Shown: positions 33,792-58,544 of the stretch, in pieces | Layout of the letters: every line of letters starts with the position of its first letter | Position numbering within the stretch: the first letter of the stretch is position 1 | DNA from: Herbiconiux sp. A18JL235 | GTDB lineage: Bacteria; Actinomycetota; Actinomycetes; Actinomycetales; Microbacteriaceae | Assembly: GCF_040939305.1 (NCBI RefSeq) | Contig: NZ_CP162511.1 | Coordinates: 124,001 to 188,000 of the forward strand | Direction: 5' to 3' | Length of the DNA: 64,000 bases | The notes under the pieces: generated by a model | Seen by the model: only the letters and a program-made list of their open reading frames with translations | Told to the model about the DNA's origin: nothing | Database searches by the model: none | Program-made: the position numbers and the translations under genes

Positions 33792-33816
33792 TCCTGGCCA
33801 CCTGAGCCCGCTCCAT

Positions 33817-33844
33817 TTTTGTGAGTACACTCGTACTAACAAAA
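33817..33844. promoter_or_regulatory. TetR-type operator over the promoter of the membrane protein/tetR unit
   Basis: Arms TTTTGTGAGTAC (33817-33828) and GTACTAACAAAA (33833-33844) match at 11 of 12 positions around a 4-base spacer. The hexamer TACACT (33826-33831) inside it is a good -10 box. A Shine-Dalgarno (GAGGGG) follows at 33845. The regulator encoded second in this unit is the likely binder. Confidence 0.75.
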
Positions 33845-33857
33845 GAGGGGCGGGCTC

Positions 33858-34406
33858 ATGGTGCTCATCGTGATCGTGTCGTGCGAGATCGCCTTCTGGG
33901 TGGCGATCCTCGGCGGACTGGCTGCACGGTACCTGCTGCGCAAGCCCCGCCTCGGCGCGGGACTGCTGCTCGCGGCACCGGTGATCGATGCGGTTCTGCT
34001 GGTGTTCGTCGCCGTCGACCTGCTCGGCGGGGCGACCGCGTCGTGGCAGCACGGCATAGCCGCCATCTACATCGGGGTGTCAGTGGCCTACGGCTCGCGC
34101 ATGGTCGCGTGGGCCGACGTGCGCTTCCAGCACCGCTTCGCCGGAGGGCCGCCGCCCGAGAAGCTCACCGGCTCCCGCTACACCGCCAAGTGCTGGCGCG
34201 ACGTGTTGCGCACCCTGCTCGCGGTGGGGATCGCCGCCGGAATCCTCGGTGCCGTCATCGTGGCGGTCGGCGACCCCGATCGAACTGCCGCCCTGTCCGG
34301 GTACTTCGGCATCCTCGCCCTCGTCTTCGGCATCGACGTGGTCTGGGCCGTGAGCTACACGATCTGGCCGAAGAAGCCCGAGGCGGGTCTCCGACCCGCA
34401 GAATAG
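33858..34406 (+). CDS. Membrane protein of TetR-linked family, hypothetical
   Basis: A 182-residue protein with five predicted transmembrane helices (about residues 2-24, 35-56, 64-82, 112-135 and 145-168). WADVRFQHRFAGGPPPEKL (about residues 85-103) is a cytosolic block I recognise from a common actinobacterial family without known function that is regularly next to a TetR gene. It is preceded by a strong Shine-Dalgarno and by the palindromic operator, and followed after 5 bases by the TetR gene, so the pair is probably autoregulated. Confidence 0.8.
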   Translation: MVLIVIVSCEIAFWVAILGGLAARYLLRKPRLGAGLLLAAPVIDAVLLVFVAVDLLGGATASWQHGIAAIYIGVSVAYGSRMVAWADVRFQHRFAGGPPPEKLTGSRYTAKCWRDVLRTLLAVGIAAGILGAVIVAVGDPDRTAALSGYFGILALVFGIDVVWAVSYTIWPKKPEAGLRPAE

Positions 34407-53516: not shown

Positions 53517-54311
53517 ATGACCGAGCCAGCCGCACACGCACCCGCACACGCGGAGCAGTCGCGGCTGCTGCTCGCGGTCTCGACGGTCATCTTCGCGCTG
53601 CGCCCCGAGATGCAGGCCGCCACCTCGTCGCCGGGCTTGTGGCTGCCGCTCGTGAGGCGCATCCGGCCGCCTTACGAGGGGCAGTGGGCGCTGCCTGGCG
53701 GCCCGCTCGGGCTCGACGAAGACCTCGAGGCGGCTGCGGCCCGCACCCTCGCGGCCACCACAGCTCTCGCGCCCAACTACCTCGAGCAGCTCTACGCGTT
53801 CGGCACCCTCGACCGGGCGCCCGAGGCGACGCCGGGCGCAGCGCGGGCCGCGGCCCCCGGTGCAGCGCAGCCCCCCGACCGCGTCGTCTCCATCGTCTAC
53901 TGGGCCCTGGTGAACGCCGACGAGGTCACCCAGTCGAGCGAGCACAGCGCAGGCGACGAGAACGTCGCCTGGTTCTCGGTCGACGACCTGCCCGACCTCG
54001 CCTTCGACCACGACGTCATCGTCGAGTACGCCCTCTGGCGCCTGCGCAACAAGGTGGAGTACTCCCGCATCGCCCACGCCTTCCTCGGCGACACCTTCAC
54101 CCTGGCCGAGCTGCGCGAGGTGCATGAGGCGGTGCTCGGGCGCTCGCTCGATCCGGCGAACTTCCGGCGGCAGATCGAGTCGTCGAACGCCATCGTGCCC
54201 ACCGGCAAGCGCGTCACCGGCACCAGCTACCGCCCGCCCAAGCTCTACCGCTACAACCAGGCCGTCGATCCCGTCGATCGCGGCCCCCTCTCGAGAAAGC
54301 CGAAGTCATGA
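53517..54311 (+). CDS. nrtR: NrtR: Nudix-related transcriptional regulator of NAD synthesis
   Basis: A 264-residue regulator with an N-terminal Nudix-like domain and a C-terminal winged helix (GDTFTLAELREVHEAVLGRSLDPANFRRQI, about residues 180-209, ending in the family's YRPPKLYRY). The Nudix box GGPLGLDEDLEAAAARTLAATTAL keeps the Arg but has lost the Glu residues of the REUxEE catalytic core (here RTLAAT), so it should sense ADP-ribose or a similar NAD product without hydrolysing it. It also has an Ala-rich insertion around residue 105. The stop overlaps nadA (ATGA). Confidence 0.9.
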   Translation: MTEPAAHAPAHAEQSRLLLAVSTVIFALRPEMQAATSSPGLWLPLVRRIRPPYEGQWALPGGPLGLDEDLEAAAARTLAATTALAPNYLEQLYAFGTLDRAPEATPGAARAAAPGAAQPPDRVVSIVYWALVNADEVTQSSEHSAGDENVAWFSVDDLPDLAFDHDVIVEYALWRLRNKVEYSRIAHAFLGDTFTLAELREVHEAVLGRSLDPANFRRQIESSNAIVPTGKRVTGTSYRPPKLYRYNQAVDPVDRGPLSRKPKS

Positions 54312-55606
54312 CCCCGTCAGCCCTGTCGGTCGACAGCACCATCCAGCTCATCGAGGCGGGAACCGCCACCCCGCCCGGCGCCACCGCCTCGACCTGCACG
54401 CCAGGCCTCGCCGACGGGCCGTGGGTGTTCGACCTGCAGGCACCCTCCTACGGCCCAGGTGCATCCGTCGCCGACCCCATCCCCCACGACGCCCCCCGGC
54501 AGGGTGTGCTGCCCGAGGTCTACAAGACGGCGTCGAAAGACGAACTGGATGCGCGCATCCGGGCCGCGAAAGACACCCTCGGCGACCGGGTGGTCGTGCT
54601 CGGCCACTTCTACCAGCGCGACGAGGTGGTGCAGTACGCCGACTTCGTGGGCGATTCGTTCCAGCTCGCCAACGCGGCGCTCACGGTGCCGCAGGCCGAG
54701 GCGATCGTGTTCTGCGGCGTGCACTTCATGGCCGAGACCGCCGACGTGCTGGCGCGGCCGGAGCAGAGCGTCATCCTGCCGAACCTCGCCGCGGGGTGCT
54801 CGATGGCCGACATGGCCGACATCGACTCGGTCGAAGACGCCTGGGCGCAGCTCACCGAGCTCTACGGCAGCGAACCGGATGCGTCGGGGCGCGTGCCGAT
54901 CATCCCCGTCACCTACATGAACTCCTCGGCCGACCTGAAGGGCTTCTGCGGCCGCAACGGCGGCATCGTGTGCACCTCGTCGAACGCGGCGACCGTGCTG
55001 GAGTGGGCGTTCGAGCGCGGGCAGCGGGTACTGTTCTTCCCCGACCAGCACCTCGGCCGCAACACCGCCAAGGCGATGGGGGTGCCGCTCGAGCGCATGC
55101 CGATGTGGAACCCGCGCAAGGCGCTCGGCGGCTCCACGCCCGAGGAGCTGCTCGATGCTCAGGTCGTGCTCTGGCACGGGTTCTGCTCGGTGCACAAGCG
55201 GTTCACGGTGGCGCAGATCGAGCGCGCGCGGGCCGAGCACCCCGACGTGCAGGTCATCGTGCACCCCGAGTGCCCGATGCCGGTCGTCGACGCCGCCGAC
55301 GCGGCCGGGTCGACCGACTTCATCGCCAAGGCCATCGCGGCGGCACCGGCCGGGTCGACCTTCGCCGTCGGCACCGAGATCAACCTCGTGCAGCGGCTCG
55401 CGAACGAGTACCCGCAGCACACCATCTTCTGCCTCGACGACGTCATCTGCCCGTGCTCGACGATGTACCGCATCCACCCCGGCTACCTCGCCTGGGTGCT
55501 CGAGGAGCTCGTGGCGGGTCGCGTCGTCAACCAGATCACCGTTCCCGACGACGTGGCCGTTCCGGCCCGTGTTGCCCTCGAGCGCATGCTCGCCGCCCGG
55601 CCATGA
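54308..55606 (+). CDS. nadA: Quinolinate synthase
   Basis: A 432-residue NadA that condenses iminoaspartate with dihydroxyacetone phosphate to give quinolinate, using a 4Fe-4S cluster. The three cluster cysteines are plausible in GCSMADMAD (about residue 165), GFCGRNGG or GIVCTSSNA (about 215-225), and DDVICPCSTMYRIHPGY (about 380). VILPNLAAGC, NSSADLKGFCG and VHPECPMPV are family blocks. It carries an N-terminal extension of about 50 residues. Coupled to nrtR upstream and nadB downstream by ATGA overlaps. Confidence 0.95.
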   Translation: MTPSALSVDSTIQLIEAGTATPPGATASTCTPGLADGPWVFDLQAPSYGPGASVADPIPHDAPRQGVLPEVYKTASKDELDARIRAAKDTLGDRVVVLGHFYQRDEVVQYADFVGDSFQLANAALTVPQAEAIVFCGVHFMAETADVLARPEQSVILPNLAAGCSMADMADIDSVEDAWAQLTELYGSEPDASGRVPIIPVTYMNSSADLKGFCGRNGGIVCTSSNAATVLEWAFERGQRVLFFPDQHLGRNTAKAMGVPLERMPMWNPRKALGGSTPEELLDAQVVLWHGFCSVHKRFTVAQIERARAEHPDVQVIVHPECPMPVVDAADAAGSTDFIAKAIAAAPAGSTFAVGTEINLVQRLANEYPQHTIFCLDDVICPCSTMYRIHPGYLAWVLEELVAGRVVNQITVPDDVAVPARVALERMLAARP

Positions 55607-57687
55607 GCGACTCCTCCACTTTCTCGCGGACAAAGTCCGTCCAAACGTCCATTCAGACGGACTTTGTCCGCGAGAACGAGGCGGCGGGGCCGACGGATGC
55701 GCCTCAGCGGCCCCCGAGGGTGATCGTCGTCGGCAGCGGGGTCGCGGGGCTCGTGACGGCACTCACGCTGAAGGCGCGGTGCCGGGAGGCGGGGCTGCCG
55801 ATCGAGCTCGCCGTGGTGACGAAGTCGACGATCGACGAGAGCAACTCGCGGTACGCGCAGGGCGGCATCGCGGCGGCCGTGATGCCGGGCGACACCGTGG
55901 AGTCGCACATCGCCGACACGCTGGCCGCCGGCGCGGGGCTGTCCGACCCCGATGCGGTCGCGGCGCTGTGCGTCGACGGGCCGGCGCGCATCCGGGACCT
56001 CATCGGCTGGGGGGTCGGGTTCGACACCGAGGGAGCCGTGCCCGGTGCGCCGTTCGAGGCCGGGCTCGAGGGTGCGCATTCGGCGCACCGCATCCTCCAC
56101 GCCGGCGGCGACGCCACGGGCCTGTCGATGGAGAGCGCCCTCGTGCGTGCCGTGCGGGGTGCCGGCATCGCGGTGCTGTCGTCGACGTTCCTCGCCGACC
56201 TCGTGCTCGACGGGCCGGTTCTTACGGACAAAGTCCGTTCGAACGTGATTTCCGACGGACTTTCTCCGCGAGAAAGTGGGGCGGCGGTGCCGACGGCGCC
56301 GGCCGTCGTGGGGGTCGAGGTGATCCGTGGCGGGGTGCGCGAGGTGCTGACGGCGGATGCGGTGGTGCTCGCCACCGGCGGCCTCGGCCAGCTGTACCCC
56401 CACACCACGAACCCCGTGGTCGCGACCGGCGACGGTGCGGCCGCGGCGTGGCGCGCCGGGGCCGTGATCGCGGATGCGGAGTTCGTGCAGTTCCACCCGA
56501 CGGCGCTCGCCGCACCGGGCTCGTTCCTCATCTCGGAGGCGGTGCGCGGCGACGGAGCCGTGCTGCGGAATGCGGAGGGGGCGCGGTTCATGGATGCCGT
56601 GCATCCGCTCGCCGACCTCGCGCCGCGGGATGTCGTCGCCCGCGCGATCGCCGCCGAGATGGCGCGCACCGGTGCACCCGTGATGCTCGATGCGACCTCG
56701 GTCGGGGCCGCGGAGCTCGCCCGCAGGTTCCCTACGATCTCGGAGCAGATGCGCCGCCGCGGCCTCGACTGGGCGCACGTGCCGGTGCCCGTGGCGCCGG
56801 CGGCCCACTACTGGATGGGCGGCGTCGCCACCGACCTCGACGGCCGCACCTCGGTGCCCGGGCTGTGGGCGGTCGGCGAGGTGTCGTGCACGGGTGTGCA
56901 CGGGGCCAACCGGCTCGCCTCGAACTCGCTGCTCGAGTCGCTCGTGTTCGCGCACCGTGCGGCGGTGGCGCTCGCCGCAGAGCTCGGGTCGGGGCGGTTC
57001 TCCCGCACAAAGTCCGGGATGACTGCGGTTTTCACGGACTTTTCGGGGGAGAACGTCGAGGGCTCGGCCCGGGAGCCCTCCCGCGCCGAGGTGCAGGAGC
57101 TGCTCTGGGCCGGCGCGGGTGTGGCGCGGGATGCGGCGGGCCTGCGGGCCGCACGCGACCGGCTGAGCGGATGGGCGGTGCAGGTCGAGCGCGACGACGC
57201 ATCACCCGAGGCGGTCGCGCGCCTCGAGACCGCGAACCTGCTGCAGCTCGGGCGCCTCGTGGTGGAGTCGGCGCTGGCGCGCGAGGAGTCACGGGGCGGG
57301 CACTTCCGCACCGACGTCCCCGAGACGCTCCCCGCCTTCGTGGGTCACCTGCTGCAGTCACGCACCCACCCGCAGCCCCGCCTGCACCGCACCTCGGTCG
57401 CCGCGGCGCTCGGCCCGCATCCCACGGCCGACGACGCACCCGCGCCCGCCGTGCCCTCCGCGCCCTCCGCGCCAGAGCCTGGCACCGCATCCGGGACGCC
57501 CGTGGTGGCGGCGGCCACCGCATCCGGGACGTCCGTGGTGGAGCCGGCCTCCGCATCCGGGACGTCCGTGGTGGCGGCGGCCACCGCATCCGGCACCGAC
57601 CCCACCACCGCACCCGCTCCCACCGCACCCGCCACCACCGCACCCGCACCCGCGGGAGCGGGCCATCGAGAGAGAGTCACCGCCTGA
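55603..57687 (+). CDS. nadB: L-aspartate oxidase carrying three in-frame palindromic inserts and a repeat-encoded tail
   Basis: A 694-residue NadB; typical members have about 540. It oxidises aspartate to iminoaspartate with FAD for NadA. The FAD motif VIVVGSGVAGLV (about residues 39-50), NSRYAQGGIAAA, HPTALAAPGSFLISEAVRGDG and the late GEVSCTGVHGANRLASNSLLESLVF are intact, so the enzyme may work. The extra length comes from three 56-bp palindromes read as residues 7-25, 206-224 and 466-484, and from a Pro/Ala/Thr tail after about residue 600 encoded partly by 33-bp repeats. The inserts lie before the FAD loop, in a mid-protein loop and near the start of the C-terminal helical domain, likely surface positions. 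Start fixed by the ATGA overlap with nadA. Confidence 0.93.
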   Translation: MSDSSTFSRTKSVQTSIQTDFVRENEAAGPTDAPQRPPRVIVVGSGVAGLVTALTLKARCREAGLPIELAVVTKSTIDESNSRYAQGGIAAAVMPGDTVESHIADTLAAGAGLSDPDAVAALCVDGPARIRDLIGWGVGFDTEGAVPGAPFEAGLEGAHSAHRILHAGGDATGLSMESALVRAVRGAGIAVLSSTFLADLVLDGPVLTDKVRSNVISDGLSPRESGAAVPTAPAVVGVEVIRGGVREVLTADAVVLATGGLGQLYPHTTNPVVATGDGAAAAWRAGAVIADAEFVQFHPTALAAPGSFLISEAVRGDGAVLRNAEGARFMDAVHPLADLAPRDVVARAIAAEMARTGAPVMLDATSVGAAELARRFPTISEQMRRRGLDWAHVPVPVAPAAHYWMGGVATDLDGRTSVPGLWAVGEVSCTGVHGANRLASNSLLESLVFAHRAAVALAAELGSGRFSRTKSGMTAVFTDFSGENVEGSAREPSRAEVQELLWAGAGVARDAAGLRAARDRLSGWAVQVERDDASPEAVARLETANLLQLGRLVVESALAREESRGGHFRTDVPETLPAFVGHLLQSRTHPQPRLHRTSVAAALGPHPTADDAPAPAVPSAPSAPEPGTASGTPVVAAATASGTSVVEPASASGTSVVAAATASGTDPTTAPAPTAPATTAPAPAGAGHRERVTA
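55621..55676. repeat. Palindromic element, copy 1, inside nadB
   Basis: Arm TTCTCGCGGACAAAGTCCGT (55621-55640) pairs perfectly with 55657-55676; one more pair closes a 21-bp stem with a 14-base loop. Total 56 bp. The first base is codon position 1; it encodes FSRTKSVQTSIQTDFVREN in NadB, six residues after the start. Confidence 0.9.
56219..56274. repeat. Palindromic element, copy 2, inside nadB (other reading frame)
   Basis: Arm TTCTTACGGACAAAGTCCGT (56219-56238) matches the reverse complement of 56255-56274 at 17 of 20 positions. Total 56 bp, same outer ends as copy 1. Here the first base is codon position 2, so the element is read one base out of phase relative to copies 1 and 3 and gives LTDKVRSNVISDGLSPRE. 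Confidence 0.88.
56998..57053. repeat. Palindromic element, copy 3, inside nadB
   Basis: Arm TTCTCCCGCACAAAGTCCGG (56998-57017) matches the reverse complement of 57034-57053 at 16 of 20 positions. Total 56 bp. First base is codon position 1; it encodes FSRTKSGMTAVFTDFSGE. This is the most diverged copy, and substitutions in both arms suggest it is the oldest. Confidence 0.85.
57484..57600 (+). repeat. 33-bp tandem repeat in the 3' part of nadB
   Basis: Units beginning ACCGCATCCGGGAC start at 57484, 57517, 57550 and 57583 (the last partial), each encoding 11 residues of the type ASGTSVVAAAT. They lie in a low-complexity Ala/Pro/Thr tail behind the folded NadB domain. Confidence 0.85.
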
Positions 57688-58544
57688 TGCTCACACCGCA
57701 GATCGTCGACGACGTCGTCGCCCGGGCGCTCGCCGAGGATGCGCCGTGGGGCGACATCACGTCGGAACTCCTCATCCCCGTCGAGGCCCGCATCGATGCG
57801 GTGCTGAGCGCCCGAGAGCCGGGCGTGCTGAGCGGCGGCCCCGTGATCGTGGCGGCGATGCGGGCGGTCGACCCGCGCATCCGGGTCGAGCTCACCCGTG
57901 ACGACGGCGCCCGCTTCGTCGCCGGCGACACCCTCGCCACCATCGAGGGCCCCGCCCGGGGTGTGCTGCGGGCCGAGCGCGTCGCCCTCAACCTCGCCCA
58001 GCGCATGAGCGGCATCGCGACGCTCACCGCCCGCTATGTCGACGCGGTCGCCGGCACCGCTGCGCGCATCGTCGACACCCGCAAGACCACGCCCGGGCTC
58101 CGCGCTATCGAGCGCGCGGCCGTGCGCGCGGGAGGCGGCTTCAACCACCGCTTCTCGCTCTCCGACGCGGTGCTCGCCAAAGACAACCACCTGGCCGTGC
58201 TCGCCGCGCAGCACGACGGTGACCTCACTGCCGCCATCCGCTCGGTGCGTTCGCGCATGTCGCACACCACGCACCTCGAGGTGGAGGTCGACCGCGTCGA
58301 CCAGATCGAGCCGGTCGTCGCGGCCGGGGTCGACACGATCCTGCTGGACAACTTCTCGCTCGACGAGCTGCGCGAGGGCGTCGCCATCGTCGCCGGGCGC
58401 GCCCTCGTCGACGCGAGCGGCGGGGTCGACCTCAGCACCGTCGCCGACATCGCCGCCACCGGGGTCGACCTCATCTCGGTCGGTGCCCTCACTCACAGCG
58501 TGCGCGCCCTCGACCTGGGTCTCGACGCCGTTCTGCGGCCGTGA
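57687..58544 (+). CDS. nadC: Nicotinate-nucleotide diphosphorylase (carboxylating), quinolinate phosphoribosyltransferase
   Basis: A 285-residue NadC that converts quinolinate and PRPP to nicotinate mononucleotide. Family blocks are EDAPWGDITSE (residues 17-27), LNLAQRMSGIATLTARYVD (about 97-115), DTRKTTPGLRAIERAAVRAGGGFNHR (about 127-152) and LEVEVDRVDQIEP and LLDNFSLDELREGV. The start is fixed by the TGATG overlap with the nadB stop. The GTGA overlap at its end couples it to the cysteine desulfurase. Normal length; no palindromic element is present in it. Confidence 0.95.
   Translation: MLTPQIVDDVVARALAEDAPWGDITSELLIPVEARIDAVLSAREPGVLSGGPVIVAAMRAVDPRIRVELTRDDGARFVAGDTLATIEGPARGVLRAERVALNLAQRMSGIATLTARYVDAVAGTAARIVDTRKTTPGLRAIERAAVRAGGGFNHRFSLSDAVLAKDNHLAVLAAQHDGDLTAAIRSVRSRMSHTTHLEVEVDRVDQIEPVVAAGVDTILLDNFSLDELREGVAIVAGRALVDASGGVDLSTVADIAATGVDLISVGALTHSVRALDLGLDAVLRP

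Follow-up and report, generated by a model that had tools for sequence, protein, structure and literature searches.

How did three palindromes of one and the same length come to lie in frame in a gene for L-aspartate oxidase? The gene is nadB of Herbiconiux sp. A18JL235, within a window of 64,000 nucleotides (the whole stretch of DNA analysed, positions 124,001 to 188,000 of NZ_CP162511.1), and the first-pass annotation, made from the letters of the window alone, had proposed that the palindromes belong to a new family of coding-compatible mobile elements. We consider it probable that they are resident copies of a lineage-specific, dispersed hairpin family (family 1) that resembles repetitive extragenic palindromes (REPs) and the REP doublets forming hairpins (REPINs), and that they persist in flexible linkers of the protein. 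The palindromes are confirmed, and the phenomenon extends further than could be known from the letters of the window; they are a variant of the REP kind, or of the Rickettsia palindromic element (RPE) kind, rather than a new category.

The nadB palindromes and their family

The gene and its three palindromes have the following positions in the window.

55603..57687, + strand: nadB, L-aspartate oxidase, 694 aa from ATG, with three palindromes in frame
55621..55676, no strand assigned: palindrome copy 1, 56 bp, arms matching at 20/20 positions, in the N-terminal part of the nadB reading frame
56219..56274, no strand assigned: palindrome copy 2, 56 bp, arms 17/20, in the nadB hinge linker, in another codon phase
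56998..57053, no strand assigned: palindrome copy 3, 56 bp, arms 16/20, in the linker before the nadB C-terminal domain

Each copy runs from TTCT to AGAA over 56 bases, with 20-base arms around a 16-base centre; this geometry had been described correctly to the base in the first-pass annotation, as had the codon phase, which is shared by copies 1 and 3 and different in copy 2. As palindromes, copies 2 and 3 alone are unremarkable, since a scan of the window returned 11 places with at least 15 arm matches, the three nadB copies included, and the best of the eight others, at 33803 and 59872, reach 17 and 16 matches. It is shared sequence, not palindromy alone, that distinguishes the nadB copies. 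The core CGGACTTT occurs six times in the 64 kb, always within these copies, whereas 0.74 occurrences would be expected and none of 100 shuffles had more than 4. RNA folding z scores on the two strands are -8.6 and -10.2 for copy 1, -3.3 and -4.0 for copy 2, and -5.2 and -5.2 for copy 3; copy 2 is the weakest fold, and 1 of 200 shuffles folded equally well on one strand. Separately, an unrelated 56-base palindrome with imperfect 26-base arms and a 4-base loop is found at 33803-33858.

The expectation that a genome search would reveal a dispersed family beyond nadB was borne out. In the genome of the window (G000), a pattern search gave 28 forward and 25 reverse matches and none for the reversed-pattern control, and a covariance model built from 22 copies gave 94 strand matches, corresponding to 47 distinct places, which is a lower bound as 150 of the 1511 candidates were scored. 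The sister species (G012) carries 51 distinct copies, taken from 33 stretches, and a genus-wide search (16 genomes, probably Herbiconiux; 150 candidates scored per genome) implied 52 places there. In 13 of the other 14 genus genomes this search found no family 1 match, and the one weak match, in G011, is a look-alike hairpin of different sequence. When 398 genomes of the taxonomic family were compared under stricter filters, three beyond G000 and G012 gave a single weak match each, all to differently sequenced hairpins, the one in G018 sharing the AAAGTCCG/CGGACTTT core. With nothing more than single weak matches in these 3 of 398 genomes and in G011, a wide distribution of family 1 was rejected. 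The exact core pattern also occurs in nine stretches from other phyla in a collection of species genomes, from which the genome itself and its near relatives may be excluded, and these are taken as chance occurrences or terminators. The window has no Rfam match at gathering scores.

The spacing of the arms is constant throughout the 98 copies of the two species (anchor scores 14-20 of 20), and their centres differ; at least 16 of 20 arm positions match in 42 of the 47 G000 copies and in 49 of the 51 G012 copies. Each arm contains a 13-bp dyad, CGGAC-AAA-GTCCG, and the two dyads lie 31 bp apart, or about three helical turns. In the consensus the inner stem is flanked by ACAAA and TTTGT and then by the outer stem, so that TTTGT follows the inner stem and no T-run follows the outer one. 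CGTC stands directly after the left dyad in 13 of the 47 G000 copies, and GTAG occurs anywhere in 2 of 47 in G000 and 3 of 51 in G012. By phase, 42, 17 and 34 of the 47 G000 copies are free of stop codons, compared with about 42% in shuffles.

Family 1 mostly lies between genes. Codon-model gene calls place 27 G000 copies between convergent genes, 16 between tandem and 2 between divergent genes, with 2 intragenic; the corresponding G012 counts are 29, 18, 2 and 2. In both genomes nadB copy 1 is counted as tandem, since the codon model places it before the start that it chooses. Outside nadB there are 48 of the 51 G012 copies and 44 of the 47 G000 copies (27 convergent, 15 tandem, 2 divergent), and relative to the gene pairs of the window (9/40/10) these 44 show a marked excess of convergent positions (Fisher p 2e-6). 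Many copies begin 10-30 bases past a stop codon, in one case a copy and the end of a predicted gene share 6 bases, and the largest chromosomal gap between copies is 556 kb. nadB is the sole gene seen to be entered by family 1 in either genome. In-frame gene entry is the exception for this family.

Persistence and change between the sister species

nadB could be compared in 15 of the 16 genus genomes (those above the curated cut-off; in G015 a contig end cuts off the N-terminus). In G012 all three palindromes occupy the same places, open and in frame, whereas no family 1 copy was recognized in the nadB genes of the remaining 13 genomes. Because they are common to the sister species, the nadB copies are old residents and not recent insertions. 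The earlier proposal of a mobile palindrome family is partly supported, its dispersal being borne out.

Between G000 and G012, the rates of synonymous (dS) and nonsynonymous (dN) change in the nadB inserts are 0.124 and 0.083 (ratio 0.67), compared with 0.339 and 0.049 in the nadB core (ratio 0.15), 0.318 and 0.155 in the insert flanks, taken as 15 codons per side (ratio 0.49), and a dS of 0.374 for the whole of nadB outside the inserts. The inserts have 4.8 synonymous changes in 42.3 sites, the rest of the gene 157 in 533.3 (p 0.013); set against the core, the low synonymous change gives p 0.040 (all p values of this kind were computed on rounded counts). Furthermore, a paired change of C-G to T-A in copy 1 replaced Ser/Leu and Glu/Lys while the palindrome was kept. 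The low synonymous change and the compensated pair support the view, already taken in the first-pass annotation, that conservation of the inserts concerns the DNA more than the peptide.

Outside nadB, 42 of the 44 G000 copies are in regions that align with copy-bearing G012 stretches, the aligned pieces being mostly 80-94% identical. In 25 rank-matched intergenic pairs the arm cores are 94% alike and the adjacent 30-base flanks 41-46% (ungapped). The centres of these pairs have a similarity of 0.635, versus 0.469 when shuffled, although several single pairs are no better than random; independent insertion at every orthologous intergenic site was accordingly rejected as a general rule. Among 20 safely orthologous pairs (17 intergenic and the three of nadB), both partners of a base pair changed in 17 cases, versus 4.6 expected, and 12 of these 17 stay complementary, four of them in one copy and one in nadB copy 1. 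The arms themselves have become characteristic of each species: the variant CGCGG is present in 21 of 94 G000 arms versus 0 of 102 in G012, and TACGG in 5 arms in G000 versus 30 in G012. Such species-specific arms would be expected if copies in a genome exchange sequence with one another, or if selection there favours a common arm.

Copies present in one species only are those at 623386 in G000 and at 634418 and 4389503 in G012. In the stretches fetched, no G012 counterpart was found for the G000 copy at 335049 (L048), and no G000 counterpart for the G012 copy at 915075 (L135). A segment of about 1.2 kb seen in G012 only (L146:2944-4177), with one palindrome copy and apparent small genes, is missing at that place in G000.

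The nadB product has the Pfam domains FAD_binding_2 and Succ_DH_flav_C, its relatives are named L-aspartate oxidase (the closest named NadB proteins being from Herbiconiux), and its best structural matches are solved L-aspartate oxidases. In an alignment with 29 relatives, the three insert places, that is the N-terminus, the hinge loop and the pre-C-terminal linker, are all variable in length. An AlphaFold model (mean pLDDT 68.5) shows most of the insert residues as loop or with low confidence, and a short helix is predicted in copy 2. Copy 1 follows the ATG at 55603, which overlaps the upstream stop, and precedes the first conserved motif of NadB; since the database protein P0001 (655 aa) begins downstream of it, this copy could belong to a leader and not to the coding sequence. 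The genes adjoining nadB are:

54308..55606, + strand: upstream gene, an open reading frame overlapping the nadB start; by its sequence presumably nadA
57687..58544, + strand: downstream gene overlapping the nadB stop, the end of the open reading frame 55155-58544 with its start read from the sequence; we take it to be nadC, likewise by its sequence

Near the 3′ end of nadB, at 57479-57597, a 20-bp stretch is repeated four times with a 33-bp spacing and encodes part of an Ala/Ser/Thr-rich tail, and the nadB tail of G012 looks unlike that of G000 in this region. Two distant NadB relatives, P0007 and P0025, share the hinge peptide RPPHRRHP, found in none of the other aligned sequences; it is perhaps another in-frame element.

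Other palindrome families in the genus

Two further families were recognized, family 2 being sought in six genomes and family 3 in 16; all of their counts are lower bounds obtained with exact patterns. Judged by sequence, family 2 (GTGGGC..C arms; GTGGGCACGATTCGTCGC) accounts in G001 for 13 of the 16 pattern matches, in G006 for four of six and in G005 for one of two; the two matches in G000 are non-members, and G012 and G014 have no match. Control patterns gave 4, 3, 1, 3, 1 and 0 matches in G001, G006, G005, G000, G012 and G014, respectively. In G006, a 56-bp family 2 palindrome occupies nadB linker 3 in frame, and one copy lies in frame in a pabB-like gene, between the N-terminal and chorismate-binding domains. 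Two of the four exact-pattern copies in G006, and none of the 13 in G001, are inside predicted genes. Family 2 has no T-run, and its location is similar to that of family 1.

Family 3 (GARTCGCCA...TGGCGAYTC, mostly 56 bp; controls 0-1 in the 16 genomes) gave 18 matches in G001, of which 17 are copies and one is unrelated; G005 has 16 copies, and variants occur in G010, G011 and G009. Five of the 17 G001 copies lie in predicted genes, namely nadB, a luxR-like gene, an hrpA-like gene, a histidine kinase gene (L198), where the copy is in the tail past the last domain, and a gene for a 338-aa protein (L193) that has no Pfam match. In G005 there are two copies in nadB and one in the luxR-like gene, in frame. 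The hrpA-like, pabB-like and luxR-like names are tentative assignments from Pfam domains. The inserts of the hrpA-like and luxR-like genes are alike in 16 of 20 residues, though the proteins are unrelated.

In nadB of three other species, families 2 and 3 thus occupy two of the three places held by family 1. Overall, the nadB linkers carry three palindrome families across lineages in 5 of the 15 genomes, and none of the three was recognized in the linkers of the other 10. These findings support the presence in the genus of palindromes compatible with coding, from more than one family and in more than one gene, and to this extent they bear out the original idea; the 44 of 47 G000 copies outside genes speak against in-frame invasion as the habit of family 1.

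The hrpA-like gene bears on how arms change. The 56-bp palindromes of G001 (L204:2038-2093) and G005 (L244:10033-10088) share 15 of 15 centre bases, whereas their arms differ (agreement at 6 of 18 and 10 of 23 positions), and this combination points to overwriting of the arms. It is tempting to extend this to the genus and to suppose that hairpin sites are old and fixed while in each lineage a single arm sequence continually replaces their arms, coding genes included. That would be concerted evolution without a REP transposase, the NadB linkers holding three arm families. We put this forward tentatively, as an unlikely generalization.

Some further observations concern these families. The arm type of the G005 hrpA-like palindrome was met once in about 224 kb of G005 DNA. 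Family 3 halves in G001 and G005 fall into several left and right types in mixed combinations, as if halves had been exchanged. Palindromes at L245:16394, L249:17672 and L250:447 in G005 have similar centres and two arm types, and they possibly form a further family. One orthologous gene (L054, L191) has family 1 at its 3′ end in both G000 and G012, and in G001 family 3.

Known hairpin elements and rival explanations

According to PMC3733652, REPs lie mostly in convergent or unidirectional intergenic space, with some inside genes, and CGTC REPs have no dedicated transposase; REPINs are described in PMC3116915. Family 1 resembles what these texts describe in being a short hairpin of two inverted arms, confined to a lineage, and in lying near stop codons between convergent or tandem genes, with some copies intragenic, as for REPs. 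It differs in having no constant GTAG or CGTC tag, in its copy number of about 50 (a lower bound) rather than the usual >100, and in that no gene for a REP-associated tyrosine transposase (RAYT) was found in G000 or G012. RPEs, as reviewed in PMC2229807 and PMC10969869, are elements of 105-146 or about 150 bp that are frequently intragenic in unrelated genes of one genome. Like them, the nadB palindromes encode stop-free, in-frame peptides in conserved proteins, and for RPEs, too, no means of spread is established; family 1, at 56 bp and with one host gene in G000, is set apart from RPEs by these descriptions. With miniature inverted-repeat transposable elements it has in common small, multi-copy inverted repeats without coding capacity of their own, but no parent insertion sequence with the same ends was seen among close arm matches and no target duplication was readable. 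The claim of a new family needs to be divided: the sequence family seems new, whereas REPs and RPEs inside genes have already been described from other phyla (PMC3733652). As had been surmised, titles and abstract openings in the literature yielded no such elements for Herbiconiux or another actinobacterium, and the parts of PMC3733652 and PMC3116915 at hand contain no word starting with 'actinobact'.

Bidirectional intrinsic terminators are likewise hairpins between convergent genes, and the explanation that the elements are ordinary terminators, multiplied since they are useful between convergent genes, with the nadB copies as stray by-products, is a serious one, although we think it rather less than probable. 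The hairpin lies between convergent genes in 27 of the 44 cases outside nadB, often 10-30 bases past a stop codon, with a T-rich side to its inner stem, and the four weakly matching hairpins found elsewhere, including the one in G018 with the AAAGTCCG/CGGACTTT core, have the order outer stem, A-run, inner stem, T-run, an appearance shared by the family 3 variants of G010 and G011. Moreover, G005 carries other long palindromes at two sites orthologous to G000 sites. However, the outer stem is extended, near-identical arms in about 50 copies would be needless for termination, and some copies are inside a coding gene, where a terminator would be harmful in nadB unless masked by translation; the comparable family 2, with its GTGGGCACGATTCGTCGC arms, is similarly located yet has no T-run. 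Should the arms instead be binding sites of a fast-evolving DNA-binding protein, with the two 13-bp dyads co-evolving with the protein in each lineage, the single arm spacing in all 98 copies with their differing centres and the species-specific arm variants would be accounted for, but the copies lie at gene ends and not at promoters (2 of 44 divergent), and among the matches listed no dyad was found outside called copies, so that this seems to us improbable.

Selfish, RPE-like elements that prefer in-frame invasion of genes would explain the in-frame copies in nadB (three families) and in the pabB-, hrpA- and luxR-like genes, in all three phases, and it is on account of the intragenic share in families 2 and 3 (2 of 4 exact-pattern copies in G006; 5 of 17 in G001) that we do not put this possibility lower than quite unlikely. 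Against it, family 1 has entered no gene other than nadB, none of the 13 family 2 copies of G001 is inside a gene, and exact insertion boundaries were not found. A peptide repeat or duplication within NadB, selected as protein, is suggested by the similar 19-residue stretches that copies 1 and 3 encode, but it is refuted by the different phase of copy 2, by the dN/dS of the inserts relative to that of the core and by the 44 copies outside genes, and we give it next to no credence.

We return to the reading that the nadB palindromes are resident members of a REP/REPIN-like hairpin family. The copies would have multiplied in the common ancestor of G000 and G012 via some copying process, giving about 50 per species. 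Most lie just 3′ of a stop codon, and once transcribed, the hairpin there probably serves the mRNA 3′ end, in termination or stabilization. Three copies would have come into flexible NadB linkers, where about 19 extra residues each were presumably tolerated; the element is usually stop-free in two of three phases, which would permit residence in coding linkers. Since the species split, many copies have been kept as palindromes, as the paired changes and, in nadB, the low synonymous change show, and the arm variants have turned species-specific, also at orthologous sites. Sequence exchange between copies, the coding copies in nadB included, would explain this. Both the mechanism of spread and the role of the hairpin are what we infer.

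Several results weigh against this reading. No RAYT-type transposase (PF01797), which the first-pass annotation had suggested looking for, was found in G000 or G012, and RAYT as the driver is rejected for these two genomes; PF01797 matched in 1 of the 16 genus genomes (G004) and in 5 of 14 control genomes. Nor did the suggested transposase gene flanked by the same palindrome turn up. No solitary arm or transposon end was seen, as all 85 of 85 arm matches in G012 (at most two mismatches) and all of the 65 listed of 80 in G000 are in called copies, and a gene between the neighbouring copies at 1105970 and 1107034 is not transposase-like by eye, no search having been made. The clean presence or absence of the nadB inserts that had been anticipated was not observed either: no close relative has a clean empty nadB site, for which reason the exact net insertion length is not readable. 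At the sites occupied in one species only, a target duplication is not readable and the surrounding intergenic stretch also differs, and as 42 of the 44 are syntenic with copy-bearing G012 stretches, recent movement of copies is not evident. A partner with a centre identity of at least 0.75 exists for only 17 of the 42. Arm-core likeness cannot separate constraint from homogenization, because random copies are equally alike (0.94). In the 20 orthologous pairs, 51 base pairs changed on one side, with pairing lost or gained, so pairing is far from strictly kept. In nadB, the difference in nonsynonymous change between inserts and core is not significant (p 0.14), and the dN/dS of the inserts is near that of the adjoining linkers. 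The inserts are presumably translated, and the AlphaFold model, of moderate quality, lends weak support, since the conserved stretches at 87-168 score as low as the inserts. Finally, the gene calls outside nadB and those for the hosts of families 2 and 3 were made with a codon-usage model, for which the retrieved DNA served as training set, and do not come from annotation. It is the 17 of 42 intergenic copies that are safely orthologous, and the weak support from the structure model, that keep us at probable.

If true, the reading extends in-frame palindromic elements to an actinobacterium. The presence of unrelated palindrome families in the same NadB linkers across species makes the tolerance of these linkers to inserts testable. 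Moreover, as orthologous sites carry species-specific arms and no RAYT gene was found, one may ask by what the arms are copied or converted. With two closely related species carrying about 50 copies each, this question of copying or conversion is directly testable.

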